A stretch of DNA of 64,000 nt from Halichondria panicea (taxonomy: Eukaryota > Porifera > Demospongiae > Suberitida > Halichondriidae). The stretch lies in the NCBI RefSeq assembly GCF_963675165.1, contig NC_087382.1, positions 3,511,963-3,575,962 on the forward strand, given 5' to 3'. Made by a program: the position numbers and the translations under genes. A model generated the notes under the pieces. That model was not told the origin of the DNA. It worked only from the letters and a program-made list of their open reading frames with translations, and did no database searches. How positions within the stretch are numbered: the stretch's first letter is position 1; each line of letters starts with the position of its first letter. Below are positions 4,985 to 60,790 of this stretch, piece by piece.

Positions 4985-7900
4985 ATGGGACAGGAACAGT
5001 CTGCTGAGTAAGTGATCGTCTTACAGCCTAACATTTTTATTGCTTTTAAACAGGAAACAGGCCGAGGAGTTACAGGTTGCTGCTTGGACTGGTGATGTCA
5101 GCAGAGTGAAGTCCCTGCTGGCACGTGGGGCCAACCCCAACCACCCCAAGTACTATCCATTACACTACGCTTGTAGGAATGGTCACCTGGAGATAGTGAA
5201 GGCAGTTGTTGAGGCTGGAGCAGACCCTGAGAGATGGGATGATGACGGCAGATATCCAGTTCGTTGTGCAGCCAAGTGGGGTCATAAGGAGGTGTTGGTT
5301 TACTTGATCAGGGATTGCAAGTGCAACGCTAGTGAGTAGTTTTCCATTCACTATAGCAGTTGCTACATAACTCCCCCGGCCAACCTTATATATAGCAATT
5401 TTTCACATTGCAAATATTTTTGTGGGACTTTAATATCAGTTTAATTTGTAACGAATACGGAATACATGCATGGCTTGGGCTTCTTAATTTTGAATGAGTT
5501 GGTTATGTACACGAACTATGCGTTCGAGGCCTTGAGGGCCTGGCTTAGGGATGGACATTTAGTTCCTTACAAATGCACCAGTCCTGTAATATTTAAATAT
5601 TAGTGATACCAACATTCACTTGTGTATAGATGCCAGGGACGATCACGAAAATACTCCACTCCACTATGCATGCTGTTGTGGTCACCAAGGTGTGGTGCAG
5701 TACTTGGTGGAGGAGGCCCACTGTGACATCAGTGAGTGTATCATAATTTTGTCTGTCCTTGTGTACAAATTTGTTGTTATGAACACTTTCAGATGTACGG
5801 AACAAGAACAACCAGACTGTACTTCATGCAGCCTGCGGTCTCTTAAGTGGTGAGTCGAAGTAATTAGAGATTATATACACAGAGAAAAAAGACGTGCTGA
5901 TTTAGCACAGAAAACCGTGCTAAACGAATGTGTCCAGTTTTAGCACGTTTGCACATGTGCTAAACAACCTGATGTGCTAAACCGGCACATGTGCTGAATT
6001 CTAATGTGCTGAAACAGTTGTGCTGATTGTATTGTGCTAAATCAATTTCAAACATTAGTAACAACAATACATCAATACAGTATTAAAATTGTATTAAACA
6101 AACGATGAGGATATAAAAGTGAAAGGTTTTTTTAAATATAGTTAGTTAACCATAGCAAGTCTGCACTCAGTTCACTGCAATTGTAAGATACTGCCTTTGA
6201 CTTCTCAGCATCACCTGCATGCGTGAAGTAGAAAAATATGTCACATAAAGCCAGTAGAATTATAACCAAGTATAAGAATAATTAAAGTGCGTATAGATTA
6301 GGTACATAACATCAGTCATAGCATGAACAAAGTAAGATTGTTCCACCCCCCCCCCCCCTCTCCACTGATAGCATTCACTAGTCTGTTGACAGGAGGTGGG
6401 GTTATTCACAGCATTGCAATGAAACTTAGGGGCGAAATAAGACATCACTAACGTTTATTCATCCATTCATAGCATAAACAAAGTAAGGTTGTTCCATCCC
6501 CCCTCTCCACTGATAGCATTCACTAGTCTGTTGACAGGAGGTGGGGTTATTCACAGCATTGCAATGAAACTTAGGGGCGAAATAAGACATCACTAACGTT
6601 TATTCATCCATTCATAGCATGAACAAAGTAAGGTTGTTCCACCCCCCCTCTCCACTGATAGCATTCACTAGTCTGTTGACAGGAGGTGGGGTTATTCACA
6701 GCATTGCAATGAAACTTAGGGGCGAAATAAGACATCACTAACGTTTATTCATCCATTCATAGCATGAACAAAGTAAGGTTGTTCCACCCCCCTCTCCACT
6801 GATAGCATTCACTAGTCTGTTGACAGGAGGTGGGGTTATTCACAGCATTGCAATGAAACTTATAATTATTATGGGGCGAAATAAGAAAAGCCTTTGCTGT
6901 GATCAGGGTGTCATACAGGGGGGGAAGGGGGATATCCCCCCCTTTCAATAATGACTGAGTGTCCATAGCTGGGTATTGACCTTTTTTTAGCAACACTTTC
7001 TGATTACTTTTCTCATTTCCCCCCTCTACTTCAAAATCCTGTATATGACACCCTGGTGATCCACGACAAATGCCGAGTGCATAAAAAAGTACATGAGCCA
7101 AAAGCAAAGAATTGTAGCTACAGAAAGAGTCATATAATACAGATAAGACCAAGAGGAAGAGTACGCTACTCCAATAGACTGTACACAGGAGGCAAACTCA
7201 CTATTACATGTAACCACAGCCACTTGAGATACAACAATAACAATAACAATGCTGATAAGGAAAAGGAGGGTGTGTGGCAATCGAAAATCGTTTTGTGCGC
7301 ACAAGGAAATTTGGGATTTCTGTAGCAGCAATTTTTAACTTGCAAAGTTGTAAATATAAAGTCCCCGTTCCGTTTACGTAGTAAGTGCATAATACACTGA
7401 TACAGCGCAAATTAAACACTAAAAAGGACGCTCAAGATAGAGCTTTTTTCTGTTGGTAAATTTACTTTGGCCACCCATGCAGCTATAGTAATCACGACAT
7501 TTTGCAGCTTGCTAGCTTTGCTACATGTAAGTTAGCTATAGCAGTTATGCTAAGTAGTGCAGTGAATGGTGCGTTCTATTTCTTGTTAGATCTACCGTAT
7601 AGCGCGAAATTTTCGAGGCACTGATTTTCGTGGATTGGCCTCTAAAAGTATTTTCGTTGCACAATGTTCGCGGAATGACTGCTTACCGGAAGCCACGCCT
7701 TTAAATCTTGCACGTTATAGCAGGTAAAGAACGATTTTCGTGGACTTAATTTTCGTGTAGGATTGCTAACCCACGAAATCCACGAAAATTAAGCCTCTCG
7801 AAAATTTCGCGCTATACGGTATGTAGAACTATAGGCTAAGCATAATTTAGCTGGGATTGTCGCTTTGCATTCAAAAACACAGCACACCGCATTTGTAAAG

Positions 7901-16282: not shown

Positions 16283-16479
16283 CTGCACGATTAAAACAAC
16301 AGCAGATCACATGACACAAGCTCGCATACCCATTGGTCCATCAAACTACAAGCGCAACTTATGACAAGCCATATACATGTAGATCATTCTCTTTCTATGC
16401 TTTTAGAAAATCAAAACATAAATTTTTTGAATTTGATACTAAAGTTATGGCTGTTCAACTACCCCCTGCCCCTCCCCCT

Positions 16480-18608: not shown

Positions 18609-18615
18609 AAAAAAA
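18609..18615 (-). terminator. Pol III terminator of tRNA-iMet
   Basis: Seven A on + (T7 on the transcribed strand), four bases past the 3' end of the tRNA gene. Confidence 0.85.
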
Positions 18616-28742: not shown

Positions 28743-31700
28743 ATGGGACAGGAACAGTCTGCTGAGTAAGTGATGGTCTTACAGCCTAACATTTTTATTG
28801 CTTTTAAATAGGCCACAGGCCCTGGAGTTATTGGATGCTGCTTGGTATGGTGATGTAAGCAAAGTGAAGTCCCTACTGGCACGTGGGGCCAACCCTAACC
28901 ACCCCAAGTACTATGATTGCCATTACAATAAACGACTGTCACTCTAATTAAATAGGAGGTTAGAAAATGCTGCTAATAAAAGGTTTATCAGCAAAGTGAT
29001 GTCTCTGCTGGAACGTGAGGCTGACCCCGAGTGCTATCCATTACACAATGCTTGTGTGAATAGTCACCTGGAGATAGTGAAGGCACTTGTTGAGGCTGGA
29101 GCAGACACTGAGAGATGGGATCGTTTGGGCAGATTTCCAGTTCATTATGCAGCCATGTATGGTCATAAGGAGGTGTTGGTTTACTTGATCAGGGATTGCA
29201 AGTGCAGCGCTGGTGAGTAGTTTTCCATTCACTAGCAGTTGCTACATAACTCCCCCGGCCAACCCTATATATAGCAATTTTTCACATTGCAAATATTTTT
29301 ATGGGACTTTAATATCAGTTTAATTTGTAACGAATACGGAATACATGCATGGCTTGGGCTTCTTAATTTTGAATGAGTTGGTTATGTACACGAACTATGC
29401 GTTCGAGGACTTGAGGGCCTGGCTTAGGGATGGACATTTAGTTCCTTACAAATGCACCAGTCCTGTAATATTTAAATATTAGTGACACCAACATTCACTT
29501 GTGTATAGATACCAGGGACAAGAACAACGATACTCCACTCCACTATGCATGCCATGTTGGTCACCTAGATATGGTGCAGTACTTGGTGGAGGAGGCCCAC
29601 TGTGACATCAGTGAGTGTATCATAATTTTGTCTGTCCTTGTGTACAAATTTGTTGTTATGAACACTTTTTCAGATGTACGGAACAACAACAACCAGACTG
29701 TACTTCATACAGCCTGCAGTTACCTCCTATATAAACCTATGTTTGGTGAGTCGAAGTAATTAGAGATTATAGTAACTACATAGCCCTAAAAGTACTTGTT
29801 TGTAACAAACCAGAAATAATAAGAGTATATGCATGTAATAGATATAGCATGGGAGACCGAGTGTTTTATGGAATATACAGGTACAAGCACAAGGGTGAAG
29901 CTCCGAGGGCGAGTTGCTTGTATATTTCAATAAAACAAGAGGATTATCATGCTATAATAATATTATGCAACGACCCTTACCAATGTGTAATAAAATAATA
30001 GAACACGGAGGGGACTGTATCACTTTTATTACACCCCTTGTAACCGATATAAATTTATAAGATCCTTACAATACAGTGCATGTATTATTATAACCAACTG
30101 CATTCCCGTTCAATATTGTAACTTTAGGTACGACATGGATACTTTCCGGTTCGCTTGCAGTAGTGCAGTACTTGGTTGAGAAGGCTAACTTTGACATCAG
30201 TGAGTTTATTTAAATGTAATGTGTACAATCTCTTGACCATTAACATGTGCAGATGCAACTGATAATAAAGGCAGGACACCACTTGACTTCGCTAAAGAAA
30301 GAGATTACAAGGACCTTGTTGACTACCTCAAGACTCGACTGGAATCATCTAGACAACCAGGCAAGTTATAGCTACTTAGCTAGCTAGCTGCCAACGTGCA
30401 ACGTGCAAGTTCAAGCTTCTTAGCTTTTGCTCGACAAAGAAGTTTTAACATCAAAATCTGCCACATGAAAAAACATTTCACCGGCATCCTAAATAATTGA
30501 CATAGCTATACATTATAAAGAGATTAGTGATGTGCATAATGTTATGTTTACACGACTCAACAACTGTTACTCATGGCAACCAGGCACGACGTTATAAACA
30601 TATTTAACCGAAATTGTTATCACGAGGAATTCCTAGTAAATTGTTATCTGAGTACATTTTCCTCAATGAAGTAAAAAATGTCATGCCAGCAAAGGCTTCG
30701 CCATGCATACAGTAATTATAACTATACTTTACCATAGCTATATATAATTTATAGTCAGTCACATTTACTTCCTTGTACATTCATGCAGGAAAAGATGGTG
30801 TTGGGAGTCAAACAGCTGTTCCACTCACACAAGACGAGGCTGATGCTCTGCAGAAGCTTCTCGAGGGAGCACAAGTCACCATTGGTCATCCCATTGTTGC
30901 TGGCACAACCACTCTGGAGGATGTTCAGCAGCTGCTTACTCAGAGAGGACTGGAGATTATGGCCGACGACCTCAGGACAAGACTCAGACTAAGTAAGCTT
31001 AAAATTACTATTTTTAGTGCTTATCACATGATCTCCAGTCCATCAGTTTAGCTTAAAGTAGTCACACGACCGTGATTTGTAATCTCCACACTTAACTGAT
31101 TACTTGCCGAATGGTTCTCGCTAAAATTTCAATGTTTGTTATTTTTCATATGATCAAAGTAACTTAATCTCTACTAATTTCTCCATAATTATAGTTATGA
31201 CTGAGCAACAAAGAAACCTCGAGATACTCAACAATCTAATGACAGATGAAGACACTATCGATATTAGCTACCCAAGGCTATTTCTTGTTGGGCCGCCATC
31301 TGTTGGCAAGACGACCACACTCAATCGACTGCTGGGGGAGTTTGAGAACATTGACTCTGCTGGAGACAAAGCCAAGCTTAGAAGCACACTGCTTGCTAAC
31401 TGCAAACAAATACTTGCCTTCGTTAATGAAAACACAGCAAAATGGTTGTCATCCAAAGATGTTGACGAAGAAACAAAGCTCTTGTTTGGCTACTTACGTG
31501 AATCTAAGTCTGAAACCACTCCTAACAAAAAGATAAGCATCGCAACCTCAACCGATTCTCCTGTATTAATACGCAAGCAAAGAACTCGATCTAAAATACC
31601 ACAATAGTGTTTCCTAAAGAAAGCAGATCACCACTACACCAAGCCACAGCTGCTCAGCGTACGACAATGAGTCATCCAAGAAGCAAACTATTACCAATAA

Positions 31701-35797: not shown

Positions 35798-36051
35798 TGC
35801 AGTGATTACACATGCAGTGTGTCGGATTGTACAAAATACTCTAGAAATTGCATGTGACATGTATTTATAGCTAGTTGAAAATAGTTGAAAATAGTTGTCC
35901 ATTTTTAGAAGTTTAATTATTCTTATGGCACAAAGGTGTTGGACTAGCTGTGTAGCTATAATTATTATTTGATGTGTATTAGTACATGGCGAGAGATTTA
36001 GTATAGAAATGAGGACACTCAAATAAGAATTGGATTTAACTGGAACGCTAG
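35798..36051. other. 3' flank of copy 2 / junction to unit 3
   Basis: No AATAAA seen soon after the stop. At about 36,047-36,051 the sequence jumps from GTPase-gene 3' flank to the third exon of the ligase relic (CTAGTCTCGCCATGATTTC). The APEX part and the first two ligase exons of unit 3 are missing. Confidence 0.6.
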
Positions 36052-37799
36052 TCTCGCCATGATTTCTGCTGGGTGTGTCTTGAAACCTGGAGTCTACACA
36101 ATCACAGGACTGGGGGATACTTTACGTAAGTCGTACATTGCCAATTTACATTCAAAAACGCTCTTCAGAAAAGCGTGGCCATATAAATAATAATGCTCTT
36201 ATACAACATGATTGTCTACTATCAGAGTTATACGTGTACTGTGGTACCTATAGCCTCTTACACAGGCCTGTTGAGAAAAGGAGGCATGTGCAAAATATTT
36301 TCTACGTGTATGTATACTATCTACTCAGTTGCCCATTGATATCCCTCCTCCCCCGTCCTCCCTTTATAGCTGCAGCTGATTTTCTAAGCCCCACCACTAA
36401 TATATTTACTATCTTCTTGACATGCAGTTGTCCATTGACCCCCTCTCCTTCGTAGCCGTTTAACCGGTTCAGGGCTCAGGAGAAGGCCAACACGACAGTG
36501 GAGAGGTCCAGAGGAGACATGGAGGCTGCCTATGTTAAGAAAGCTACAGAGGACCTTCAGTCGCACACTAAGAGATTCCAGCATTATTATGACAGATACA
36601 ACAATCATCTACACAGTCTGGATGTAAGTGGTGGAGCGTGAAAACCTCTACTAATTTATAAACAAATTTTATAAGCAAGTTTAGTGTTCGATTTTGCTAG
36701 TTAACTTTGACTTTCTGTAACTTGAGTTTGGAAGGTCCAAGTTCAAACCAACAGTACATCATGTACTAGTTTTTTGGATCATGAGCCATAATTATACTCC
36801 TTGTCAGATTGAAATGAAGTTGCTTCAAGAGTCGACTGGTAAGATGAGAGAACTGGAAAGACTCGGACTGGCTCTCGACAAGAAAGGTAAAATTTTATTG
36901 CGTGCATGTATTATAATAGCTGCTTAGTAAATATAAAACCGTAATTAATATAATTATATAGTCATTGGAAGTTTCGTACTGTACATAATTATAACACTGC
37001 AGTGTACATATTTTTCTTTATAGTGGTTCGGGTCAAAGGTCAATCTACTGACGCTGCGATTGGGGCAGAATCTCCCCTCACTCCACAAAAGAAAATCAGT
37101 GTTTTCACAACTGGAAAAGCGAAAAACTTTCTCGATGATATTTTCCGATTTCTGCTGAGAGCGAGGAGAATCCTGTCAGCCTCGTATTGCATTGGATACT
37201 TCATCCCTGATACAGATGAGGAGACCCTGGGGGCACATGAAGTATTGCAGGTGAGGGCAGGTGGCTCATCGTGACAGCAGATTATGGTGTATGGAGAAAT
37301 AGTGAAGCATTTCTTTAAACAATCACAACTTAAATGTTTATCTACTTGCGTGAAGTATTCCATTTTGGTAGAATTTACTACGTGTACCATTGCATTGTCG
37401 AGTGTAGCAGCGTTGTCTAACAGCCTACTGTAATAGCTAATTTGGTGTGTCACTTCCCAACACACACTCACACACACACCCACCCACCCCCACACAAACC
37501 CACACACACACCCCTCAAGGTAAACTAGAGGAAGCAGTGGAGGTGGTCTCGAATATGGTCAATAGACAATGCCTACAAACACCACGCTCTAAAATGAACG
37601 AAGCCGCTGGAAACGTCGACTATCTTTGCAGCAAATATCTCACCGAAATGTCTGTGGTTGCGACAATCGCCGATCTGGCAGTAAAAGAAGCGGAAAAACC
37701 TCCACCTCTGCATGCCGCCCCGCCCACTCCACGGGAGGACACCCCGCCCCCTCGTATGGGGGTGATTCCCCTCGGCTTCGGACCAGACGTTCCCGACCA
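36052..37799 (+). pseudogene. ANKIB1-like ligase relic, copy 3 (head of a chimera)
   Basis: Exons near 36052-36125, 36456-36622, about 36808-36886, 37024-37251 and from 37520. A Cys of the second RING2 exon is Ser (TCTCGCCAT; shared with copy 4). The next exon starts CCGTTTAACCGG where others have CTGTAACCGG, a 2-base gain that shifts frame. The last exon is open and runs in frame across a breakpoint at about 37,799 (GFGPDVPDQPD|EETKLLFGYL) into the GTPase gene. Confidence 0.75.
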
Positions 37800-40700
37800 A
37801 CCGGACGAAGAAACAAAGCTCTTGTTTGGCTACTTACGTGAATCTAAGTCTGAATCCACTCCTAACAAAAAGAGAAGCATCGCAACCTCAACCGATTCTC
37901 CTGTATTAATACGCAAGCAAAGAACTCGATCTAAAAATACCACAAAAGTGTTTCCTAAAGAAAGCAGATCACCACTACACCAAGCCACAGCTGCTCAGCG
38001 TACGACAATGAGTCATCCAAGAAGCAAACTATTACCAATAAAATCAGAATTACAACAGCTAATAAAAAATGCAGATTATTCCAAAATGGCCGATTTCCTT
38101 GGCGATATTTTACTGAACATTCACGACATCGGAGGTCAGCCAGGCTTCTTGGAAATGCTACCAGCCCTGAGCACTGGTCCGGCCATTTATCTAGTGTTCT
38201 TAGATCTCAGTAAGGAACTTGACAAGCTGTACAAAATACCTTTCAGTCGAGATGGTATGGAAATTATTCCCTTCAATTCTGTTCACACTACAGAAGCCAC
38301 AATCTCTCAAATCCTCACCTCTATTGCCAGTGTCCATTGCATCTCAAGAGATCCCACTCCTCTTATTAATGTTGGCAGAGCTAGTGATGCTTTTAAAGAA
38401 AGAATAACAACTTTTAAACAAGTTAAACCGGTAGCAGCCTTGATAGGCACACACAAAGACAAGCTGACCGACCCCGCGAGACAAATCAGAGAGAAAAATG
38501 AGGCACTTGAAAAATTTATCCAAAAATTCCCTGAAATTATTCAGGATCAGAACAGCAGAATATTGAGCACAGCGAACCTCTAGACGGAGCCTGTACACAA
38601 TCAGATTCAAAATCTTGTTTCTTCTCAGTAGAGAACCTCAATGGAACTGAAGTGTCTGACATTGGCCCCGTTTGTAATTTCTTAAGTCGAATAATTTTGT
38701 CTCGTTTCAAAAATGCTTCTCTTCCATTTCGACCGAAATGGCTTATTTTTGGGTTGCTTCTTCGAAAACAATTTCAAATAGCTACAATTGAAGATTGCTT
38801 TGAATTAGGAGAAATGCTAGAAATGCAGAAAGAAGAAGTAAAAGTGTGTCTCTGGTATCTTCACAACTGTGTTGGTACGATCCTCCATTACACCAACGTA
38901 CCTGGTGATGACGATTGGCTCAAGGGTCATGTGATATGCACCCTTCAAGCTATTTTTGATAGCATCAGCCAGTTTATTCTTCTTTCTATGCGAACACTTC
39001 ACTCAGGAGGTCCAGTTACCGACTACGAGCAAGCCGAGTTGGTTAAGAAGGGACAGTTCTCGATCAAATCCATTGAAATGTGTTGCAGAAACGTGGAAAT
39101 GTCTGAACTCATTCCCACAAAGCATCTCATTAAGTTATTGGAGCACGTCAAACTTCTGTCCCCGATATCTCATAAGGATGAATCATCAGCGGAAGTTGTT
39201 CGCACTACCTACTTAATGCCGGCTGTTTTGGAGTGTGCTTCACAAGAGGAGCTGGCAAACCCACCTCCACCAGACACCAACAACCCAGAACCACTCCACA
39301 TCACATTCAGCTTTGGTTACATACCAACAGGAGTCTTCTGTGGGCTCATCACTCGACTAGTAACCCAAGGCCCCCATAAAATCCTCGGATTGACGTGGAA
39401 GTTGGTGGAAGACAGTGTCAAGAGAAACTGCGTCTCTTTCTATGTAGATAGTGTTCACAAGGTGACTCTGCTCTCGCACGAAAAGAGCTACGAAATTCGA
39501 GTTTCCCGTGAGGATCCAGAATCTTCTCTGCACAACCTTTGCGCTCATGCACTCTCTGTCGTTCTGTATTTCCTCAAAACCTTGTATGAGAATTTGGTTC
39601 CATTAATCGCATTCCAGTGTCCCTGTTCTAATCACAAAGCCGAACGAGACGTCACTAATTTATGTACTATTTCCGATGGTTCAAAAGTTCGATTTCTTTG
39701 TAACGATTCTATAAAGCTCGTTAAATTAAAACCGGAACAACGGATCTGGCTTGGAAAGGTAAGTATTTTTGTAACCATTAATTGTATTAATGATGCAATT
39801 AATTCGCTACAGACCAAGAAGGTTGGTGAGGAAGCTGAACTAGAGGTGCTAAAGTTTGCTGAGGATGGTTTTTTCTTCCACTGGACCAAAGAGGGCTCCA
39901 GACGTCAGATCAAGACCACTGATGATCGGCCCAACACTCTGAGCTTCCCGAGTGTGAGAGAGGAGGACTTTGGTCACTACCAGTGTGAGGTGAAGGATGC
40001 AGCTGCTGGGAAAGTGCTCCTCACTCTCTACACAGCTCTCTACAAAGAGGAGACAAGTCAGTTAGCATTGAGATGTATGCCGCACTTACGTTCAATCTTT
40101 TTACATCACATTATACTTTAGCCGAATTTTCTACTGAAAGGAATGAAGAGCCAAGATGCAGTGGCACTAACTCTATTGTAAAGACGCCATCATCAGGTTT
40201 GATTGTTTCTACCAACTATTCTACAAACACTGTTGTTCACTGATCACTCCTATATAGATGAGGGGTCCCTGTCATCAGAAAGGCTCCAATACTCAGCAGA
40301 TCCAGTCCAGAGAGTAGAAACTCCATCAGCTGGTGAATACAATCAAGTCCGTACTAGAATATTAGGTATAATTATTTCCTGAAGTAGCTAGTTATGTATT
40401 TATGCATGGTTATTTAATGTTTGTCCCTCTACAGGATCACCTGCTAATCAAGTCGCTCTCCAAGAACTAATGAAGCGATACAATCTGACTGACGAGCAAC
40501 TCAACCGTGAAATAGTGGACTCTGATACTCCCGTAATGGCCTTAAATTTTGATGATGTGGAAATGTATTCAACTGCAATGGGGCTAGCTATTGCTAAACA
40601 AGCTGATGTGAAAGAATCACGTGGAGATCAAGCAGCCATGATGAAGTGCCTGCAAGTCTGGAAAGAACGTGATCCTTTTCAAGCAACTTATAGAGCTCTA

Positions 40701-41123
40701 CTGGATATTGCACTGAGTTTGGGGAAAGGAGACACAGCTGATAAAATCTGTCAGCAATTGACCCAACGTAAGTACATGTATATCAGTGCCCCTCCCCTTT
40801 TCCTCGCCCCTCTAACAAGCAACTGAGCCGGTAGCTATCCGACTCATGCATGTAACTGAAATCACACCAGAGAAGTATTTCATAATGAGTACATAGCTAG
40901 TAGGTTGTACATAATTATAGGATTGACAATGCAATTGTGTGTTTTCAATTTTTTGCACAAATTATCACTCGTGTTCATATAATTATATACATTTCCACTT
41001 GTTGGTATCTATATAGCTAGACTGCACTCTCAGCTAGTGCACTGTTGATATGACAACCTATAGTTTATTAAAATGATCTACATATTGTTTCTATATTATT
41101 GTACAGATCATACACTGGACTGA
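37800..41123 (+). pseudogene. ANK-Roco-Ig-Death copy 3, headless and frameshifted
   Basis: Starts inside Roc after the P-loop, fused to the ligase tail; ANK repeats, linker and P-loop are absent. DIGGQ and THKD remain. A 7-base loss near 38,541 (CCTGAAATTATTCAGGATC against ...ATTATTTCTCCAGGATC) shifts frame to a TAG at about 38,581. The frame reopens to 39,758 and continues in exons 39813-40056, 40122-40196, 40258-40365, 40435-40767 and 41107-41123 (ending TLD). Ig and Death exons are undamaged. The 54-nt intron 39,759-39,812 has no stop and is a multiple of three, as in copy 1. Confidence 0.85.
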
Positions 41124-42109: not shown

Positions 42110-44343
42110 ACCAATACACCAACTAGATACGTGTGTTAAAACTGTATTCCAGCATCTAGACCAGTATAATTATAGTAAACTGACTTTGTTAGATAGCTTG
42201 GGACTCCATAATCTGAGCAGCTTGGTGAACAGCACTGTTCCTAAGACAAGACAAGACACAGGAGGTTCCAGTTGATCACAACACTCTCCATGGCAGTAAG
42301 AATGAAGGGATATTCCCTAACAGTAGTTCTACACTGCACTTACTGTGTCTTACAGGTAGGGTTTTTCCCTATGCAATGTGGCCACCATTGATTGTTGTGC
42401 CACTGTCTAGTCTACGTCTGTTTCCAAGAGCTCTCTCACTATCTGCAGTCCAAGTTATGCCAAAAGAAAGAAAAAGAAAGGTTCTACTTTAATAGAAATC
42501 TAGTGTAGAACTTACTTTGATAGCCTGTTGCTAGCTAGCTGTAGAGATGTATTTGTTTATATATCTACCTATATAGCTACTGAGTACTGTGCTATTTTAC
42601 CTCATACCAACACCCACATAACCAGGAGACTCCTGCTGCTGTAGGAGGAGGCTCTGGCTCCACCATTGAGGAGGTACGTCACTGACACACACACCTCACA
42701 CATTGTTGTCCACGTAGTCTCATGAATCAGCCGCACTAGGAATGTCCGTCTGAGCACCACTTTAGTCTAGAGGTTATTGCACAATGGAATTTTAATTGTC
42801 ATTACGTCAGTGTCAAAACCAATTAGTTCCAATGCATGCAAAAGGTCAACCGCGAACGCTTGACTTAGCAGCTATGAATTTTTGTTTGGCTTGCTCCAAG
42901 AACGTTGCTAAAAGATCAAGAAAAAAGTTGCACAGCACTAGTGCAGTCAACATAGCTCCTTGACTGGCTAACAGTAACGCTGCGCTGACTAGCGCTATAA
43001 TATAAATGCGTCCTGCTGCATACGCTTCTTTTCATTCTTTATTTCCTTTAATTTTGTAAATCCTTGATCTGATTAGTCAGGTCGGAATTCTGACCTGGCC
43101 AAAAAAGTTTGTACTAAAGTGCTCAGACGGATATTCCTAGTGCGGCTGATTCATGAGACTAGTGTCCACGTACGTACGTATATATCCCCAGGCACTTCCT
43201 GTGAAGAAAATCAAAAGAACAGAAGCTACTGATGGAGAGGCTGTGAGCAAAGGGAAGGGCAAGGAAAACAAGACGAACTGGGATGGTATCGAATTGGGAC
43301 AAACTAAAGACTGGAGGTATACATTCCAACTGTGCTATCAATTGATACTGGTCACATGTACTCAGACCATGGACCAGCTCATGGAATGTGAATGGAATCA
43401 GAGCGTGGATAAAGGTATCGTTTCCTCCGTCCTCAATAATTACAACTATTAACCAACCGCATTTTATACACTGTGTACAGAATGGTGGTCTGGAGTACAT
43501 TGCACGAGAATACCCAGACATATTCTGTGTACAAGAAACCAAGTGTATTGAGAAAGAGCTTCCTATGGTAGGGCAGCCACTGTACACACACACTCACCCC
43601 CCACACACACACACTCACCCCCCCACACACACACACTCTCACACAACCCCCCCCCACACACACACACACAGAACCAGCTCGGTATTCCTGGCTACCACGT
43701 CTACTGGCACTCCGCAGAGAAGAGGCTACAGCGGTGTGGGGTGAGGCATATTCACCAACTGTTGTGTGGTTAGTTACAAGTATTGTGCAGGCTGTACTCA
43801 AAGAGAAGCCAATTTCAGTGACCAATGGTTTGGGAATTGAGAAGTTTGATTGTGAGGGTAGGATCATCACTGCTGAATATGAGCACTTCTATTTCCTTAC
43901 ATCTTGTAAGTTGGTTCTGATTTTATTTAGATTCCTATTGTCACTGTTATGTTGTGCCCTGTGTATATAGATGTGCCCAATGCTGGTGATGGCCTCAAGA
44001 GGCTCTCGTACAAGCAAGACTGGGATAGGGACCTCAGAGAGTACATGAAGAAACTAGATCTCAGTCCTTCTCTGTGGGGACCTCAATGTGGCCCATAAAG
44101 AGATAGGTACCTTCAGAGTTTGCCTTGACTTTGTGTACATGCATGTATGTATCTACGTATAGATTTAAAGAACCCCAAGACAAACACAAAGACAGCTGGT
44201 TTCACGCCTGAGGAGAGACAGGACTTCACAGAGCTACTGGAGGAGGGTTTCGTGGACACCTTCCGTCACCTGTATCCCGACCTCTCTGGAGCGTACACTT
44301 ACTAGTCATACCGGCTCAACGCCAGAGCCAAGAACACTGGCTG
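42110..44343 (+). pseudogene. APEX1-like AP endonuclease relic, copy 4 (most complete)
   Basis: Exons: 42626-42673 (ETPAAVGGGSGSTIEE), 43192-43316 (LPVKKIKRTEATDGEAVSKG..., a basic NLS-like N-terminal part), 43366-43414 (SWNVNGIRAWIK), 43481-43567 (FCVQETKC), 43672-43740, then pieces ending with the 167-nt-class exon that stops at 44,343. It shares with copies 2 and 5 the net frameshift before GYSGVG and the one before CGDLNVAH, and the TAG at 44,303-44,305. It lacks one C in the next exon (TGTACTCAAAGAG) compared with copies 2 and 5. The second exon survives only here. Confidence 0.85.
42716..43161. mobile_element. MITE in APEX relic intron, about 46-bp inverted ends
   Basis: The left end TCTCATGAATCAGCCGCACT plus AGGAATGTCCGTCTGAGCAC mirrors the right end TAAAGTGCTCAGACGG and ATTCCTAGTGCGGCTGATTC. 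About 446 bp. In units 2 and 5 only the left end survives (24,523-24,570 and 54,870-54,915) and is joined straight to the middle of the next APEX exon, so a deletion started inside the element. Confidence 0.85.
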
Positions 44344-44481
44344 GTGAGTGCTCCTGCATTACTCTAGCAATAGAGTGTATCTGTGTTATCATGTCCACGA
44401 TCCTGCTACTAATACCCAACACATGCACACACTGTCTTAGTTATCCACCCCCCCACCACCCACACACACCACACACACTAG

Positions 44482-46600
44482 ATGACGAGGCAAAGAAGGT
44501 AGCCTCACAGGCACAAGCCGACGCTCGCTGGATCATAAGAAACACAAAGCCTTGTCCACATTGCAGGTACGTTGGAATAGAGTATAGAACAATAATATTT
44601 AGAGTTACTGTACATAATTATACGTTTCATTATTGTCTGATTTCAATATTTCCTTAGAGAGCTCTAATTCAGAAGAACGACGGATGCAATCACATGACTT
44701 GTAAACAGGTACGGGCTTAACATAATTATTAGACTGGGAACGGCTGCATCTAGTTCATCTTTTGTTGCCTCTATTCTCGCCATGATTTCTGCTGGGTGTG
44801 TCTTGATTCCTGGAGTCTACATAACCACAGAACTGGGGGATACTTTACGTAAGTCGTACATTGCCAATTTACATTCAAAAACGCTCTTACAACTGATTGT
44901 CATCTATAGCTAGCTATGTGTACTAGCTTTGCTGTTCTCATAACTTTTCAGTTCATATTTCACACAAATGTCACAAATGATATGGGCAACAGATATCAAT
45001 CTTGTCTATTGACCTAGCTCCCTCCTTTTCCTTCGTAGTGTGAATCGGTACCGTTGCAGTTTAATTTATTCAACAAATACTTTTTTAGAGGCCATTCCAT
45101 GAAATTCAGTTGTCTATTGACCTCCCTCCCCTTTGTAGCTGTAACTGGTTCACTGCTAAGGAGAAGATCAACACGACAGTGGAGAGGTCCAGAGGAGACA
45201 TGGAGGCTGCCTATGTTAAGAAAGCTACAGAGGACCTTCAGTCGCACACTAAGAGATTCCAGCATTATTATGACAGATACAACAATCATCTACACAGTCT
45301 GGATGTAAGTGGTGGAGCGTGAAAAATCTCTAGACAATTCTAGCAAGTTTAGTTTTGATTTTGCTAGCTAGTTTTAAGTGCCCATAACTTGACTTTGGAA
45401 GGTCCAATTTCATATAGGATGCGTTCTGTAGCTCTAAGGGAGGTCTATTTATCAAAATGGGTGTGTTTAAATCATGTAGGCCAATTTTTTTTCTCCTTGT
45501 CAGATTAAAATGAAGTTGCTTCAAGAGTCGACTGGTAAGATGAGAGAACTGGAAAGACTCGGACTGGCTCTCGACAAGAAAGGTACGATGTTTGTGCATG
45601 TATTATAATAACTGCTTAGTAATATTGAAATATGACCTTAATTTGGAAGTTCGTACTGTACATATAACACTACATACTTTTTTTATAGTGGCTCGGGTCA
45701 AAGGTCAATCTGATGCCACCATTGGGGTGAACTCTCCTCTCACTCCACAAAAGAAATCAGTGTTTTCACAACTGGAGAAGCGAAAAACTTTCTCGACGAT
45801 ATTTTCCGAATTCTGCTGAGAGCGAGGAGAATCCTGTCAGCCTCGTATTGCATTGGATACTTCATCCCTGATACAGATGAGGAGGCCCTGGGGGCACATG
45901 AAGTATTGCAGGTGAGGGCAGGTGGCTCATCGTGACAGCAGATTGTGGTGTATGGAGAAATAGTGAAGTATTTCTTTAAACGATCACAACTTAAATGTTT
46001 ATCTACTTGCGTGAAGTATTCCATTTTGGTAGAATTTACTACGTGTACCATTGCATTGTCGAGTGTAGCAGCGTTGTCTAACAGCCTACTGTAATAGCTA
46101 ATTTGGTGTGTCACTTTCCAACACACACTCACACACACACACGCACACCCACACACACACCCACTCACACTCACACACCCACTCACACACCCCACACCCC
46201 TCAGGGCAAACTAGAGGAAGCAGTGGAGGTTGTCTCGGAGATGGTCAATAGACAATACCTCCAAACACCACGCTCTAAAATGAACGAAGCCGCTAGAAAC
46301 GTCGACTACCTTTGCAGCGAATATCTCACCGAAATGTTCGTGGTTGCGACAATCGCCGATCTGGCAGTAAAAGAAGCGGAAAAGCCTCCACCTCCGCGTG
46401 CCACCCCGCCCACTCCACAGGAGGACAGCCCGCCCCCTCGTATGGGGGTGATTCCCCTCGGCTTTGGACCAGCCGTTCCCGACCAACCGGATGGAGAGAG
46501 GCGCTTCCGTTTGATTGGTCTATTGAATCCCGATGGAACATTGCATATTTTACGAGTACCGGAAGAGGAGTTTCAATATCTTAGGGCCCCAGCAGACTAA
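44482..46600 (+). pseudogene. ANKIB1-like RBR ligase C-terminal relic, copy 4
   Basis: Seven-exon layout; RING2 first part (CPHC, GCNHMTC), Ariadne helices, final exon intact to LRAPAD. The acceptor of the third exon is lost (CCTCTAT instead of CCTCTAG) and its first Cys is Ser. One A is missing in the sixth exon (CAAAAGAAATCAGTG against CAAAAGAAAATCAGTG, about 45,755), shifting frame to an early stop. The defects differ from those of copies 1, 2 and 5. Confidence 0.8.
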
Positions 46601-47278: not shown

Positions 47279-50200
47279 ATGGGACAGTTCCTGTCTGCTG
47301 AGTAAGTGATGGTCTTACAGCCTAACATTTTTATTGCTTTTAAATAGGAAACAGGCCAAGGAGTTACAGTTTGCTGCTTGGACTGGTGATGTCAGGAAAG
47401 TGAAGTCCCTGCTGGAACGTGGGGCCAACCCCAACCCCCCCATCTACTATCCATTACGCATTGCTTGTAAATATGGTAACCTGGAGATAGTGAAGGTACT
47501 TGTTGAGGCTGGAGCAGACACTGGGAGATGGGATGATCGGGGCAGTTCTCCAGTTCATTCTGCAGTCAAGTATTGTCATAAGGAGGTGTTGGTTTACTTG
47601 ATCAGGGATTGCAAGTGCAGCGCTGGTGAGTAGTTTTCCATTCACTAGCAGTTGCTACATAACTCCCCCGGCCAACCCTATATATAGCAATTTTTCACAT
47701 TGCAAATATTTTTGTGGGACTTTAATATCAGTTTAATTTGTAACGAATACGGAATACACGCATGGCTTGGGCTTCTTAATTTTGAATGAGTTGGTTATGT
47801 ACACGAACTATGCGTTCGAGGCCTTGAGGGCCTGGCTTAGGGATGGACATTTAGTTCCTTACAAATGCACCAGTCCTGTAATATTTAAATATTAGTGATA
47901 CCAACATTCACTTGTGTATAGATACCAGGGACAAGAACAACAATACTCCACTCCACTATGCATGCTATTGGGGTCACCTAGATGTGGTGCAGTACTTGGT
48001 GGAGGAGGCCCACTGTGACATCAGTGAGTGTATCATAATTTTGTCTGTCCCTGTGTACACATTTGTTGTTATGAACACTTTCAGATGTACGTAACAACAA
48101 CAACCAGACTGTACTTCATGCAGCCTGCCGTCCCTACCTACCTATAATTGGTGAGTCGAAGTAATTAGAGATTATAGTAACTACATAGCCCTAAAAGTAC
48201 TTGTTTGTAACAAACCAGAAATAAAAGTATATGCATGTAATAGATATAGCATGGGAGACCGAGTGTTTTATGGAATATACAGGTACAAGCATAAGGGTGA
48301 AGCTCCGAGGGCGAGTTGCTTGCATATTTCAATAAAACACGAGGATTCTCATGTTATAATATTATGCAGGACGACCCCTTACCAAAACGTGTAATAAGAA
48401 CACGGAAGGAACTGTATGACTTTTATTACATCCTTGTAACCTATATAAAATTATAAGATCCTTACAATACAGTGCATGTATTATTATAACCAACTGCATT
48501 CCCGTTCTATATTATTGCAATCCCAACTTTAGATTTATTTTGGTCTAAAGGAGGTTCCGATCAGCTTGCAGTGGTGAAGTACTTGGTTGAGAAGGCTAAC
48601 TGTGACATCAGTGAGTTTATTTAAATGTAATGTGTATACAATCTCTTGATCATTAACATGCACATGCAGATGCAACTAATGATCAAGGCAGGACACCCCT
48701 TGACCTAGCTACATGTAAAGATAATGATTACAAGGACGTTGTTGACTACCTCAAGACTCGACAAGAATCATCTAGACAACCAGGCAAGTTATGAAAACAT
48801 TTCACCGGCATCCTAAATAATTGACATAGCTATACATTATAAAGAAATTAGTGATGTGCATAATGTTATGTTTACACGACTCAACAACTGTTACTCATGG
48901 CAACCAGGCACGACGTTATGAACATATTTAACCGAAATTGTTATCACGAGGAATTCCTAGTAAATTGTTATCTAAGTACATTTTCCTCAATGAAGTAAAA
49001 AATGTCATGCCAGCAAAGGCTTCGCCATGCATACAGTAATTATAACTATACTTTACCATAGCTATATATAATTTTATAGTCAGTCACATTTACTTCCTTG
49101 TACATTCATGCAGGAAAAGATGGTGTTGGGAGTCAAACAGCTGTTCCACTCACACAAGACGAGGCTGATGCTCTGCAGAAGCTTCTCGAGGGAGCACAAG
49201 TCACCATTGGTCATCCCATTGTTGCTGGCACAACCACTCTGGAGGATGTTCAGCAGCTGCTTACTCAGAGAGGACTGGAGATTATGGCCGGCAACCTCAG
49301 GACAAGACTCAGACAAAGTAAAATTTAGATATAAACACGATTTAGCACTTTTTTAACAGTCATAAAAACGCAGCCTCTAACTCTGCTTTGCCATCCCAGT
49401 GCAGTATTAAAATACGCGATTTTGGCTAACTATAGGTGTTCTGTCACATGATCTCTATAGCCTCATGTACAGCCTGTCATTTGTACAGCGTGACCAGTTT
49501 TTTACCTGGCTACATTTGATTCTGTTCATAAAAGTAACTTAAAGCACTTTACTGAATTAAGTAGCATGCATCTCTTGACTCCTTTTTTCAATAATTCATG
49601 AACAAATAATTTTTCATATGATCAAAGTAACTTAATCTCTACTAATCTCCATAATTATAGTTATGACTGAGCAACAAAGAAACCTCGAGATACTCAACAA
49701 TCTAATGACAGATGAAGACACTATCGATATTAGCTACCCAAGGCTATTTCTTGTTGGGCCGCCATCTGTTGGCAAGACGACCACACTCAATCGACTGCTG
49801 GGGGAGTTTGAGAACATTGACTCTGCTGGAGACAAAGCCAAGCTTAGAAGCACACTGCTTGCTAACTGCAAACAAATACTTGCCTTCGTTAATGAAAACA
49901 CAGCAAAATGGTTGTCATCCAAAGATGTTGACGAAGAAACAAAGCTCTTGTTTGGCTACTTGCGTGAGTCTGAAACCACTCCTAACAAAAAGATAAGCAT
50001 CGCAACCTCACCTGATTCTCCTGTATTAATACGCATGCTAAGAACTCTGTTTAAATATACTTCACAATTATTTTCTGAAGAAAGCAGATCACCACTACAC
50101 CAAGCCACAGCTGCTCAGCGTACAACAATGAGTCATCAAAGAAGCAAACTATTACCGATAAAATCAGAATTACAACAGCTAATAAAAAATGCGGATTATT

Positions 50201-53200
50201 CCAAAATGGCCGATTTCCTTGGCGATATTTTACTGAACATACACGATATCGGAGGTCAGCCAGGCTTCTTGGAAATGCTACCAGCCCTGAGCACTGGTCC
50301 GGCCATGTATCTAGTGTTCTTAGATCTCAGTAAGGAACTTGACAAGCTGTACAAAATACCTTTCAGTCGAGATGGTATGGAAATTATTCCCTTCAATTCT
50401 GTTCACACTACAGAAGCCACAATCTCTCAAATCCTCACCTCTATTGCCAGTGTCCATTGCATCTCAAGAGATCCCACTCCTCTTATTGATATTGGCAGAG
50501 CTAGTGATGCTCTTAACGATAGAATTAAAACATTTAAACAAGTTAAACCGGTAGCAGCCTTGATAGGCACACACAAAGACAAGCTGACTGACCCCGAGAG
50601 ACAAATCATCGAGAAAAATGAGGCACTTAAAAAAATTATCAAAAAATTCCCTGAAATTATTATTTCTCCAGGATCACAAGAGCAGAATATTGAGCACAGC
50701 GAACCTCTAGACGGAGCCCGTACACAATTAGATTCAAAATCTTGTTTCTTCTCAGTTGATAACCTCAATGGAACTGAAGTGTCTGACATCGGCCCCGTTC
50801 GTAATTTCTTAAGTCGAATAATTTTGTCTCGTTTCAAAAATGCTTCTCTTCCAATTCGACCGAAATGGCTTATCTTTGGGTTGCTTCTTCGAAAACAATT
50901 TCAAATAGCTACAATTGAAGAATGCTTTGAATTAGGAGAAATGCTAGAAATGCAGAAAGAAGAAGTAAAAGTGTGTCTCTGGTATCTTCACAACTGTGTT
51001 GGTACGATCCTCCATTACACCAACGTACCTGGTGATGACGTACCTGATGTTGACAGTTGGCTCAAAGGTCATGTGATCTGCACTCTTCAAGCTATCTTTG
51101 ATAGCATCAGCCAGTTTATTCTCCTTTCTATGCGAACGCTTCACTCAGGAGGTCCAGTTACCGACTATGAGCAAGCCGAGTTGGTTAAGAAGGGACAGTT
51201 CTCGATCAAATCCATTGAGATGTGTTGCAGAAACGTGGAAATTTCTGAACTCATTCCCGCAAAGCATCTCATTAAGTTATTGGAGCACGTCAAACTTCTG
51301 TCCCCGATATCTCATAAGGATAAATCATCAGCGGAAGTTGTTCGCACTACCTACTTAATGCCAGCTGTTTTGGAGTGTGCTTCACGAGAGGAGCTGGTGA
51401 ACCCACCTCCACCAGACACCAACAACCCAGAACCACTCCACATCACGTTCAGCTTTGGTTACGTACCAACAGGAGTCTTCTGTGGGCTCATCACTCGACT
51501 AGTTTCCCAAGGCCGCCATGGAATACTCGGATTGACGTGGAAGTTGGTGGAAGATGGTGTCAAGAGAAACTGCGTCTCTTTTCTGATTGCGAAATCAAAT
51601 AAGATAACGTTAATATCGCATGAAAGAAGTTACGAAATACGAGTTACTCGAAATCACGCCCGTCTCTCCCTGCACGACCTTTGCACCTATGTTCTCTCGG
51701 TAGTTCTCTACACTCTCACGAGCATGTACAAGCAGCTAGTCCCACAAGTGGCGTTCCAGTGCCCATGTCCTGGTCACAGCTCAAGCAGGGATAGAAATTC
51801 CTTGTGTATTCTGACAGAAGATGTATGGATTCAGTTTCTGTGTGGCAGTAATCCCGTTACCTTGAGGAAGGAGCAGACAGTTTGGCTTGGAAAGGTGTGT
51901 GTACAGTTAGCGTACGTAGAATTATGTTCATGTGTTCTTGCGGTGCTATTTGTAGTGTGTCAATCTTATAATTAGTCACGATAATGTTTCCATTCATTCT
52001 ACAGACCAAGAAGGTTGGTGAGGAAGCTGAACTAGAGGTGCTAAAGTTTTCTAAGGATAGTTTCTCCTTTCACTGGATCAAAGAGGGTCAGATCAAGACA
52101 ACTGACGATCGGCCCAACACTCTGAGTTTCCCGAGTGTGAAAGAGGAGGACTTTGGTCACTACCAGTGTGAGGTGAAGGATGCAGCTGCTGGGAAAGTGC
52201 TCCTCACTCTCTACACAGCTCTCTACAAAGAGGAGCCAAGTCAGTTATCATTGCATGTATGCCGCACTTACGTTCCATCTTTTAACGTTTTTTTTTGCTG
52301 CAGGCGAATTCTCTACTGAAAAGAATGAAGAGCCAAAAAGCAATGACACTAAATCTATTGTAAAGACGCCATCATCAGGTTTGATTGTTTCTACGAAGTA
52401 TTCTACAAACACTGTTGTTCACTGATCACTCTTATAGATGAGGGGTCCCTGTCATCAGAAAGTCTCCAATACTCAGCAGCTCCAGTCCAGAGAATAGGAA
52501 CTCCATTATCATCATCAGCTTGTGGTGACAGTCAAGTCCGTAATAGAAGAGGTATTATGATATGTTATTATGGTTATTCCATTGTTTGTGCCATAATCAC
52601 TGTTTGCCCCTCTACAGGACCACCTGCTAATCGAGTCACTCTCCAAGAACTAATGTGGCGATACAAACTGACTGACGAGCAGCTCAACAGTGAAATAAGG
52701 AACTTCAATTTTTCCTACCTGGCCATATATTTCAATGATGTGGAACTTTATTCGAATGCCATGAGACTAGCTCCTGCTGAACAAGCTGACGTGAATATGC
52801 TATACTATAGCAAAGGAACTCAAGTAGCCATGATGAAGTGTTTGAAAATCTGGAAAGAACGCAATTCTTCTCAAGCAACTTACAAAGCTCTATTGGATAT
52901 TACACTGAGTTTGGGGAAAGGAGACACAGCTGATAAAATCTGTCGGCAATTGACCCAACGTAAGTACATGTGTATCAGTGCCCCTCCCCCTTTTCCTCGC
53001 CCCTCTAACAAGCAACTGAGCCGGTAGCTATCCGACTCATGCATGTAACTGAACTCACACCAGAGAACTATTTCATAATGAGTATACATAGGAATGACAG
53101 TCACAGTGCAATTGTGTGTGTTTTCAATTATTGCACAAATTATCTCAGCTAGTGCACTGTTGCTATGACAACCTATAGTTTATCAAAATGATCTACATAT

Positions 53201-53238: not shown

Positions 53239-53274
53239 TGAAGTGATTACACGTGCAGTGTGTCGGATTGTACA

Positions 53275-56179: not shown

Positions 56180-56318
56180 GTTAGTGCTCCTGCATTACTC
56201 TAGAAATAGAGTGTATCTGTGTTATCATGTCCACGATCCTGCTACTAATACCCAACACATGCACACACTGTCTTAGTTATTCACCACCCCCACCACCCAC
56301 ACACACCACACACACTAG

Positions 56319-57738: not shown

Positions 57739-58082
57739 AGGGGCGGGGAAATTACAAAGCCACTAAACAGCATTTCATCTCATTTCCATGTTTTGTACTG
57801 AAAATCATCATTAAATACGGAAAAATAAGCTGATTAATACTGAAGAGAAAAGTCTCTACTTGGAGGCTCTGATGTACATGTATATACCCTATGATTTATT
57901 CATGAACATGCATGCAGTCACATGTGTAATGGAATTCCCCTTACACACAATAGAGGGTGTGTCTGGCATGTCTGTGGTGAGGGTATTCATATCATTCCAA
58001 GAATACCAGCTAGTGAATATAATCAGTGAACCAATTCTCTGCAGTCTACACACATCTCTGAGTTCCTAGCAGAAACTATAAT
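57739..58082 (+). promoter_or_regulatory. 5' flank of ANK-Roco copy 5 (rearranged)
   Basis: The C-run found upstream of copies 1, 2 and 4 is missing; about 130 bp of unrelated DNA (57,739-57,870) replaces it. From about 57,880 the conserved block to the start codon is present once. Confidence 0.4.
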
Positions 58083-60790
58083 ATGGGACAGGAACAGTCT
58101 GCTGAGTAAGTGATTGTCTTACAGCCTAACATTTTTATTGCTTTTAAACAGGGAAAAGGCCGAGGAGTTACAGGTTGCTGCTAGGACTGGTGATGTCAAG
58201 AAAGTGAAGTTCCTGCTGGCATGTGGGGCCAATCCTAACCACCACTATCCATTACGCATTGCTTGTTATAATGGTCACCTGGAGACAGTGAAGGCACTTG
58301 TTGAGGCTGGAGCAGACACTGGGAGAAGGGATGATTGGGGCATGTCTCCAGTTCATTATGCAGCCTTGATGGGTCATAAGAAGGTGTTGGTTTACTTGAT
58401 CAGGGATTGCAAGTGCAGCGCTGGTGAGTAGTTTTCCATTCACTAGCAGTTGCTACATAACTCCCCCGGCCAACCCTAGTAGCAATTTTTCACATTGCAA
58501 ATATTTTTGTGGGACTTTAATATCAGTTTAATTTGTAACGAATACGGAATACATGCATGGCTTGGGCTTCTTAATTTTGAATGAGTTGGTTATGTACACG
58601 AACTATGCGTTCGATGCCTTGAGGGCCTGGCTTAGGGATGGACATTTAGTTCCTTACAAATGCACCAGTCCTGTAATATTTAAATATTAGTGATACCAAC
58701 ATTCACTTGTGTATAGATGCCAGGGACAAGTACAACAATACTCCACTCCACGATGCATGCTATCGTGGTCACCTATATGTGGTGCAGTACTTGGTGGAGG
58801 AGGCCCACTGTGACATCAGTGAGTGTATCATAATTTTGTCTGTCCCTGTGTACACATTTGTTGTTATGAACACTTTCAGATGTACAGAACAACAGCAACC
58901 AGACTGTACTTCATGTAGCCTGCAATCGCCCCCTATCTACAATATTATTTACAAGTAGTGAGTCAAAGTAATTAGAGATTATAGTAACTACATAGCCCTA
59001 AAAGTACTTGTTTGTAACAAACCAGAAATAAGAGTATATGCATGTAATAGATATAGCATGGGAGACCGAGTGTTTTATGGAATATACAGGTACAAGCATA
59101 AGGGTGAAGTTCCGAGGGCGAGTTGCTTGCATATTTCAATAAAACACAAGGATTCTCATGCTATAATATTATGCAGGACGACCCCTTACCAAAACGTGTA
59201 ATAAGAACACGGAAGGAACTGTATGACTTTTATTACATCCTTGTAACCTATATAAAATTATAAGATCCTTACAATACAGTGCATGTATTATTATAACCAA
59301 CTGCATTCCCGTTCAATATTGTAACTTTAGGTAAGAAGCTTGCATTGGTGAAGTACTTGGTTGAGAAGGCTAACTGTGACATCAGTGAGTTTATTTAAAT
59401 GTAATGTATACAATCTCTTGACCATTAACATGCACATCCAGATGCAACTGATAAGCGAGGCAAGACACCACTTGACTTAGCTAAAGGGAGTGGTTACGAG
59501 GGCATTGTTGACTACCTCAAGACTCGACAGGAATCATCTAGACAATCAGGCAAGTTATGAAAAAACATTTCACCGGCATCCTAAATAATTGGCATAGCTA
59601 TACATTATAAAGAGATTAGTGATGTGCATAATGTTATGTTTACACGACTCAACAACTATTACTCATGGCAACCAGGCACGACGTTATGAACATATTTAAC
59701 CGAAATTGTTATCACGAGGAATTCCTAGTAAATTGTTATCTGAGTACATTTTCCTCAATGAAGTAAAAAATGTCATGCCAGCAAAGGCTTCGCCATGCAT
59801 ACAGTAATTATAACTATACTTTACCATAGCTATATATAATTTATAGTCAGTCACATTTACTTCCTTGTACATTCATGCAGGAAAAGATGGTGTTGGGAGT
59901 CAAACAGCTGTTCCACTCACACAAGACGAGGCTGATGCTCTGCAGAAGCTTCTCGAGGGAGCACAAGTCACCATTGGTCATCCCATTGTTGCTGGCACAA
60001 CCACTCTGGAGGAAGTTCAGCAGCTGCTTACTCAGAGAGGACTGGAGGATATGGCCACCAACCTCAGGACAAGACTCAGACAAAGTAAGCTTAGATAACC
60101 ATCCATTATTGCTGTCAGCGCTAGGTTGGGTGGGGCTCATTGCTGATTCAGCGCTTTTTTAACGGGCATAAAGAACAGCTCTAACCTATACTAGTACACC
60201 AGCATTGATTTTGGCTAGACTAGTATAGCTAGTGCTGTCACGTGATCGGGTACAGCCTATATCATTTCAGTAAAGCTGGACCTGTTAAACCCCAGTTTTC
60301 TACCTGGCTACATTTGAATCCGTGTCTTGAATTGTTGAAAAAGTAAGTTAATCTCTGGCTAGGTATGTTCTAAATCTCTGGTGTATAATTATAGTTATGA
60401 CTGAGCAACAAAGAAACCTCACGTTACTAATGACAGATGAAAACACTATCAATGTTTGCTACCCACGGCTATTTCTTGTTGGGCCGCTATCTGTTGGCAA
60501 GATGACCACACTCAATCGACTGCTGGGGGAGTTTGAGAACATTGACTCTGCTGGAGACAAAGCCAAGCTTAGAAGCACACTGCTGCAAACAAATACTTGC
60601 CTTTGTTAATGAAAATACAGCAAAATGGTTGTCATCCAAAGATGTTGACGAAGAAACAAAGCTCTTGTTTGGCTACTTGCGTGAATCTAAGTCTGAAACC
60701 ACTTCTAACAAAAAGAGAAGCATCGCAACCTCAACCAATTCTCCAGTAATAACTTGATCTAAAAATTCCACAAATTTAATTCCTAATATT
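58083..60790 (+). pseudogene. ANK-Roco-Ig-Death copy 5, truncated in Roc
   Basis: Exons 58083-58105 (MGQEQSAE), 58152-58423, 58717-58818, 58880-58957, 59331-59384, 59442-59549 and 59881-60084 keep phase through ANK repeats and linker. Exon 8 (from 60,395) has a damaged P-loop, GPLSVGKM instead of GPPSVGKT, losing the Thr that helps bind Mg. An 8-base deletion between CTG repeats (about 60,582) shifts frame, and a further deletion removes about 13 bases near 60,752. Similarity to the family ends at about 60,790; COR, Ig and Death are absent. At most an ANK-only protein could be made. Confidence 0.85.

Follow-up and report, generated by a model that had tools for sequence, protein, structure and literature searches.

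Array structure and gene anatomy

The window examined here is a stretch of 64,000 nucleotides from the sponge Halichondria panicea (contig NC_087382.1; C6:3511963-3575962), and it contains part of a tandem array of genes that join ankyrin repeats to a ROC-COR-like GTPase and a Death-like domain. A DNA query made up of the end of exon 2, intron 2 and exon 3 was searched against the genome (131 Mb in 39 contigs), and 16 near copies (82–100% identity) were found in tandem at C6:3.402-3.663 Mb; these counts are lower bounds. Four of them, copies 1, 2, 4 and 5, lie inside the window, and the other 12 array copies are referred to as L001-L012. Weaker matches to the same query include C6:3.349-3.378 Mb and C5:5.915 Mb. 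As L008 is divergent, it was left out of most counts, which consequently refer to 15 copies. An earlier sequence-only reading of the window had numbered five copies. The array itself and the ankyrin exons of copies 1, 2, 4 and 5 were recovered, while the count gave way to 16 near copies, and the third unit in the window (36048-40949) is without these ankyrin exons.

Exon 1 encodes MGQ[EFK]xSA in all 16 copies, with an MGQ start that we take to be a possible N-myristoylation motif. Exon 2 encodes three ankyrin repeats, the first of which is cap-like by eye, and exon 3 encodes a single repeat of 34 codons. One further repeat is split by an intron between exons 4 and 5, the last repeat is found in exon 6, and exon 7 is a linker. 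Exon 8 is a long frame with a P-loop, DIGGQP and THKD, which we read as ROC-COR-like GTPase motifs. The features in the window, as read from the sequence, are as follows:

4985-5007, 28743-28765 and 58083-58105, forward: exon 1 of copies 1, 2 and 5
5054-5331, forward: copy 1 exon 2, ankyrin repeats 1-3, of which repeat 1 is cap-like
5332-5629, forward: copy 1 intron 2
5630-5731, forward: copy 1 exon 3, one ankyrin repeat
28812-29212, forward: copy 2 exon 2, with an additional repeat, and interrupted by an in-frame stop if a 48-base GT-AG intron is left in
29213-29508, forward: copy 2 intron 2, 296 bases
29509-29610, forward: copy 2 exon 3
29674-29745, forward: copy 2 exon 4, 72 bases
47279-47301, forward: copy 4 exon 1, MGQFLSA
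47348-47625, forward: copy 4 exon 2, ankyrin repeats 1-3
47626-47921, forward: copy 4 intron 2, 296 bases
47922-48023, forward: copy 4 exon 3, one ankyrin repeat, in which positions 2, 3, 10, 13 and 14 are selected
48085-48150, forward: copy 4 exon 4, first half of the split ankyrin repeat, with the variable loop at the 3′ end of the exon
48533-48610, forward: copy 4 exon 5, remaining half of the split repeat, with the variable loop at the 5′ end of the exon
48670-48783, forward: copy 4 exon 6, last ankyrin repeat
49114-49317, forward: copy 4 exon 7, linker
49663-51972, forward: copy 4 exon 8 frame from its first ATG (exon start 49661) to the stop codon at its 3′ end, ROC-COR-like GTPase
52605-53024, forward: copy 4 Death-like exon, weak Pfam Death match, approximate limits
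58152-58423, forward: copy 5 exon 2
58424-58716, forward: copy 5 intron 2
58717-58818, forward: copy 5 exon 3

Exon 6 of copy 4 has an apparent GC donor at 48784 (CCAG followed by GCAAGT). In copy 1, the unusually long interval between exons 4 and 5 contains a repeat of ~145-150 bases, with 6310-6718 matching 6460-6862 (6310-6862 overall).

The ankyrin repeats are recognised by Pfam over the respective cut-offs (Ank_2, E 2.7e-33; Ank, E 3.6e-32), and among the PDB matches of this part of the protein, ankyrin-1 ranks first and DARPins are also present. No NACHT or NB-ARC match was listed in the exons scanned, which places the genes outside the NOD-like receptors (NLRs).

Divergence of the ankyrin exons

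The sequence-only reading had proposed that the ankyrin exons diversify while the neighbouring introns barely change, and that this reflects diversifying selection on the ankyrin recognition surface. The pair of copies from which it argued was described accurately. Between copies 2 and 4, intron 2 (29213-29508 and 47626-47921) differs at 4 of 296 bases and exon 3 (29509-29610 and 47922-48023) at 6 of 102, and all six exon changes are replacements, distributed over four codons (D/N, H/Y, V/W and M/V). The residues CC, HV, YW and YR reported for copies 1, 2, 4 and 5 are likewise present. Three of the six changes sit in one codon (GTT vs TGG), and this pair alone is weak evidence (one-sided Fisher p = 0.021).

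Among the 15 copies, 32 of 102 sites segregate in exon 3 as against 23 of 296 in intron 2 (Fisher p = 2.7e-8), and the mean pairwise proportion of differing sites (p) is 0.097 (9.7%) in the exon and 0.0115 (1.15%) in the intron. Exon divergence thus exceeds intron divergence after alignment rather than equalling it. For exons 2 and 3 together, the proportions of replacement (pN) and synonymous (pS) differences are 0.121 and 0.062 (pN/pS 1.95), with pN reaching 0.43 in the 20 codons that carry at least four amino acids. In all 105 pairs pN is greater than intron p, in 104 of them it is also greater than pS, and the exon 2 and 3 peptides of the 15 copies are all distinct. When L008 is included, the values for all 16 copies are pS 0.066, pN 0.123 and intron 0.025. 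Exons 7 and 8 had been considered far more uniform than the ankyrin exons, which holds for absolute divergence (exon 8: pN 0.048, pS 0.115 in 11 copies). In comparisons with copy 4 along the unit, 63 of 84 non-ankyrin windows of 100 bases diverge by no more than 4% (median 2.4%), and the nine ankyrin windows of the same size range from 3.3 to 13.5%.

Codon models M0, M1a and M2a were fitted with our own implementation, the M0 log-likelihood (lnL) of which matches that of IQ-TREE (-2154.81). Under M0, dN/dS (omega) of the ankyrin exons is 3.3-3.8, not 1 or below. For exons 2 and 3, M2a improves on M1a by 2dlnL of 244 on the exon tree and 311 on a tree of intron 2 and 240 upstream bases, and the selected class, ~18% of codons, has an omega of 11.4 and 12.7 on the two trees. 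A contrasting control is provided within the same genes: among the 11 copies whose exon-8 frame is long, M0 omega is 3.55 and M2a omega 12.65 (2dlnL 174) for exons 2 and 3, as against an omega of 0.47 for exon 8 codons 1-600 (588 used).

Individual sites were called by naive empirical Bayes on single trees of sequences that recombine, and 18 codons have a posterior above 0.95 on both trees. Eleven of them belong to the two full repeats, where they occupy ankyrin positions 2, 3, 5, 10, 13 and 14 of one and 2, 3, 10, 13 and 14 of the other, as numbered by hand from the ankyrin consensus. These we take to be the positions at which ankyrin repeats bind their partners. Nine of the 11 coincide with the positions randomised in DARPins (2, 3, 5, 13, 14 and 33), a set to which position 10 does not belong (hypergeometric p = 3e-7, assuming 66 positions). 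The remaining seven selected codons lie in the first two repeats, and four of these fit positions 10, 13 or 14.

The repeat split between exons 4 and 5 carries a loop that is very variable in both sequence and length and changes in whole codons. In 15 of the 16 copies, the length of exon 4 is divisible by three; in L001, the donor of this exon is altered. Exon 5 could be placed in 14 copies (all but L001 and L003), and in each of these its length is likewise divisible by three. Of the 16 copies, 13 have the same 25 bases at the start of the intron that follows exon 4, directly adjoining a hypervariable exon end. Taken together, omega above 1, exon divergence in excess of intron divergence and the positions of the selected sites strongly support diversifying selection on the ankyrin surface, as the sequence-only reading had proposed.

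A recognition role and its alternatives

The array probably encodes intracellular recognition receptors under diversifying selection. Each ankyrin domain would bind a different, fast-changing ligand, be it microbial, from a symbiont, or a self/non-self determinant; binding would shift the ROC-COR GTPase, and the signal would be relayed by the Death-like domain at the C terminus into a pathway of death or defence. New residues would arise by point mutation and be fixed by selection, while unequal exchange and gene conversion would reshuffle the exons, alter the number of ankyrin exons and preserve similarity over the remainder of the unit. More speculatively, the array could be a natural DARPin-like repertoire, in which more than 12 ankyrin sensors on a shared GTPase/Death chassis are diversified at binding-surface codons and in a junction-spanning loop, and are reshuffled by conversion and by changes in exon number. 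Such a repertoire would serve immunity or allorecognition, at a locus varying from one individual to the next.

The main alternative is that diversifying selection is real and serves allorecognition, in the sense of self/non-self fusion, instead of the sensing of pathogens or symbionts. A study of fungal NLRs discusses repeat domains of the same pattern in connection with non-self recognition (PMC4986451), and a Death-like domain would suit a rejection response. We regard this as the less probable function, although it is the strongest of the competing accounts.

It is also conceivable that gene conversion alone homogenised the introns and framework and left older divergence in the ankyrin exons, without positive selection. 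Exchange among copies is indeed indicated. In approximately unbiased (AU) tests, the exon-2, exon-3 and flank trees are mutually rejected (p <=0.0053), albeit with a flank alignment that includes an indel-rich upstream stretch, so that the very large flank likelihood differences may be inflated. The nearest relative of a copy shifts from exon to exon, some of the variable exon-3 blocks turn up in more than one combination, and exon 3 is doubled in L002 and L008. Because the exon and intron trees conflict, exchange contributes to the pattern, and to judge from the alignments, recombination or conversion evidently mixes the copies. Conversion is further favoured by the position of intron 2 at the low end of unit divergence and by exon synonymous sites that diverge more than the intron. 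Conversion alone cannot, however, raise replacement over synonymous change, as observed here in pN/pS and in the M0 omega above 3. Moreover, among the 54 codons in which neither the amino acid nor the first two bases change, only nine vary synonymously, which is not clearly different from the 23 of 296 sites in the intron (p = 0.067), and these constant codons are interspersed among hypervariable ones. Conversion as the sole cause is therefore improbable.

Somewhat less probable again is a targeted germline or somatic mutator, acting on the ankyrin exons by hypermutation or retro-templated diversification. The very high local divergence would suit such a process, as would the 9 of 36 first and second positions of the 18 hypervariable codons that carry all four bases among the 15 copies. 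Against it, change stops sharply at the exon-4 donor, and variation follows codon position, with 34 of 36 first and second positions variable as compared with 12 of 18 third positions. The ratio of transitions to transversions at biallelic sites is similar in exons 2 and 3 (61:32) and in intron 2 (15:7); the ratio of the upstream stretch (22:33) comes from an indel-rich alignment and was not used. The sharp edge, the codon-position bias and the intron-like ratio therefore favour selection at the protein level over a local mutator. That the ankyrin exons are under relaxed constraint or are decaying as pseudogenes is very improbable, since omega is far above 1, and not near 1, in the 11 long-frame copies, framework codons are conserved and exons 4 and 5 keep whole-codon lengths, notwithstanding the four copies (2, 5, L006 and L008) that are without an unbroken long ROC-COR exon.

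Several observations weigh against selected recognition receptors as the explanation of the array. All data come from one genome and one haplotype, and the site models assume a single tree and are inflated by recombination. In 104 of 105 pairs, intron p is lower than pS of exons 2 and 3 (6.2%), which places intron 2 towards the bottom of the neutral range, and a comparison based only on this intron makes the contrast between exon and intron look too large. The ankyrin exons are not the sole divergent part of the unit either. Exon 7 has a pN of 0.040 and a pS of 0.018 in 15 copies (ratio 2.29, from few changes), and the ROC-COR exon gives a weak M2a signal (2dlnL 8.1, p = 0.018, omega 1.76). 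Fourteen non-ankyrin windows exceed 6%, including one at 43.6 kb (simple repeats) and one at 50.0 kb inside exon 8 (12%). Around and before the Death exon, at 52.2-52.9 kb, nucleotide divergence is 7-22% per 100 bases, which is above that of the ankyrin exons; the divergence at 52200-52900 may reflect two lineages of the 3′ end. Three selected codons (alignment columns 4, 7 and 32) fall off the binding positions, and the exon-5 acceptor side is itself variable, with the commonest 20-mer in 7 of 14 copies.

The domains beyond the ankyrin repeats add to this list. The Pfam Roc match is sub-threshold (E 0.00082; 20 bits vs a cut-off of 27), no Pfam COR match was listed in the exons scanned, the ROC-COR exon alignment found no PDB profile match at E 0.1, and the structure model of this exon is of low confidence, with a mean predicted local distance difference test score (pLDDT) of 35. 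Pfam Death was matched in 4 of 4 members with a best E of 0.00064, and in the one member with bit scores it reached 17.6 vs a cut-off of 22.6; the Death exon had no PDB profile match at E 0.1 and its model is also of low confidence (mean pLDDT 46). An Ig-like match is weak and under the Pfam curated cut-off. The GTPase frame is broken after 136 codons in copy 2, where a further 737-codon frame follows, and stops after 70 codons in copy 5 and L006; no ROC-COR match was listed at L008. The ankyrin exons of these four copies vary as well. An immune or non-self role, finally, is suggested by the domain architecture, and on balance we lean slightly towards it.

Related loci and known systems

The array belongs to a larger set of related sequences. 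The ROC-COR exon has at least 91 exon-level matches genome-wide (73 of 310 candidates scored), at ~70 places by hand count, and this large family is dispersed over C1, C2, C4, C6, C8, C10, C11, C13 and C14, a number of its members having stop codons. Translations were examined for three of the eight C1 loci L031-L038, and among those three, only L031 has ankyrin repeats, which lie upstream of its ROC-COR exon. Within the array, L007 has array-type ankyrin exons followed by a divergent open ROC-COR frame with 54% identity to copy 4, and is probably a chimera, as its sequence suggests. Stretches of C6 beyond the array also have ankyrin exons with varied residues, and L016 holds four exon-3-like units. 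An array of ankyrin-only genes with many near-identical 33-residue repeats is found at C15:680700-766300 (L018-L024), where 68 repeat units picked by a fixed pattern vary mainly at ankyrin positions 1, 5, 10 and 13. Elsewhere in the genome, among six cathepsin-like loci that were read, one (L030) has Ser where the catalytic Cys would be expected, which together with the style of the Death domain would fit a demosponge.

Upstream of copy 4, the region 43346-46600 contains an IBR/RING-like cysteine motif and an AP-endonuclease-like piece (Pfam Exo_endo_phos, E 5.9e-5, just under the cut-off). The IBR/RING-like exons were considered as part of the copy 4 gene and rejected. As their frame stops at 46598-46600, ahead of exon 1, they are treated as a separate neighbour gene, and from its sequence the region resembles a gene of its own, degenerate in part, that was copied together with the units. 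In the third unit of the window (36048-40949), the tail of the upstream gene is joined straight to the middle of the ROC exon, with the junction near 37804. A stretch of ~1.2 kb at 61993-63228 matches its own reverse complement at 89%.

DAPK1-type ROCO proteins have the domain order ankyrin, ROC-COR, Death, an order that the ankyrin repeats and the putative ROC-COR and Death-like domains of the array would share. The array differs from this type in its putative Ig-like domain, its large expansion, its hypervariable ankyrin surface and the lack of a kinase match in the exons scanned; in the hand-spliced copy 4 protein, which likewise gave no kinase match, the putative exon 1 (MGQ...) directly precedes the ankyrin exons. 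Venom genes have accelerated exons and conserved introns after gene duplication, and resemble the array in this respect, although they encode secreted toxins and not intracellular switch proteins. Engineered DARPins share with the array a constant framework and variable surface positions, according to excerpts of PMC8683736, whereas the array also varies at position 10 and has a loop of variable length.

In the sponge literature, excerpts of one study list ankyrin-repeat and GTPase genes among the responders to lipopolysaccharide (PMC8242945), and the main text of a paper on Dysidea NLRs has no occurrence of ankyrin or ROCO (PMC12909245). Among the literature matches listed, which cover the field in part, there was no report of an animal ankyrin-ROC-COR-Death array of this kind.

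Closer parallels are found in fungi and brown algae. The ankyrin (ANK) repeats of fungal NLRs are positively selected, with sites on the concave surface and in the beta-hairpin region and one exception, as described in excerpts of Dyrka et al. (2014; PMC4986451). Fungal ANK NLRs thus share with the array positive selection on the ankyrin surface, recombination among repeats and a non-self context. They differ in having NACHT or NB-ARC domains and repeats amplified within a gene (PMC4986451), as opposed to ROC-COR, repeats on separate exons and tandem genes in the array. In brown algae, the candidate immune receptors with leucine-rich repeats (LRRs) and ROC-COR (LRR-ROCOs) have selected concave positions and undergo exon shuffling, according to excerpts of PMC11378527. 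With them the array shares a putative ROC-COR GTPase, a repeat sensor at the N terminus encoded at one repeat to the exon, the exchange of exons and selection at concave sites (PMC11378527), but it carries ankyrin repeats where these algal proteins carry LRRs. The kind of system is therefore already known from fungal ANK NLRs and brown-algal LRR-ROCOs. If the proposed role is correct, the array would be an animal counterpart to these two systems, based on ankyrin repeats and a ROC-COR switch. The codons expected to set its specificity can now be named, which makes recognition diversity testable in animals without adaptive immunity.

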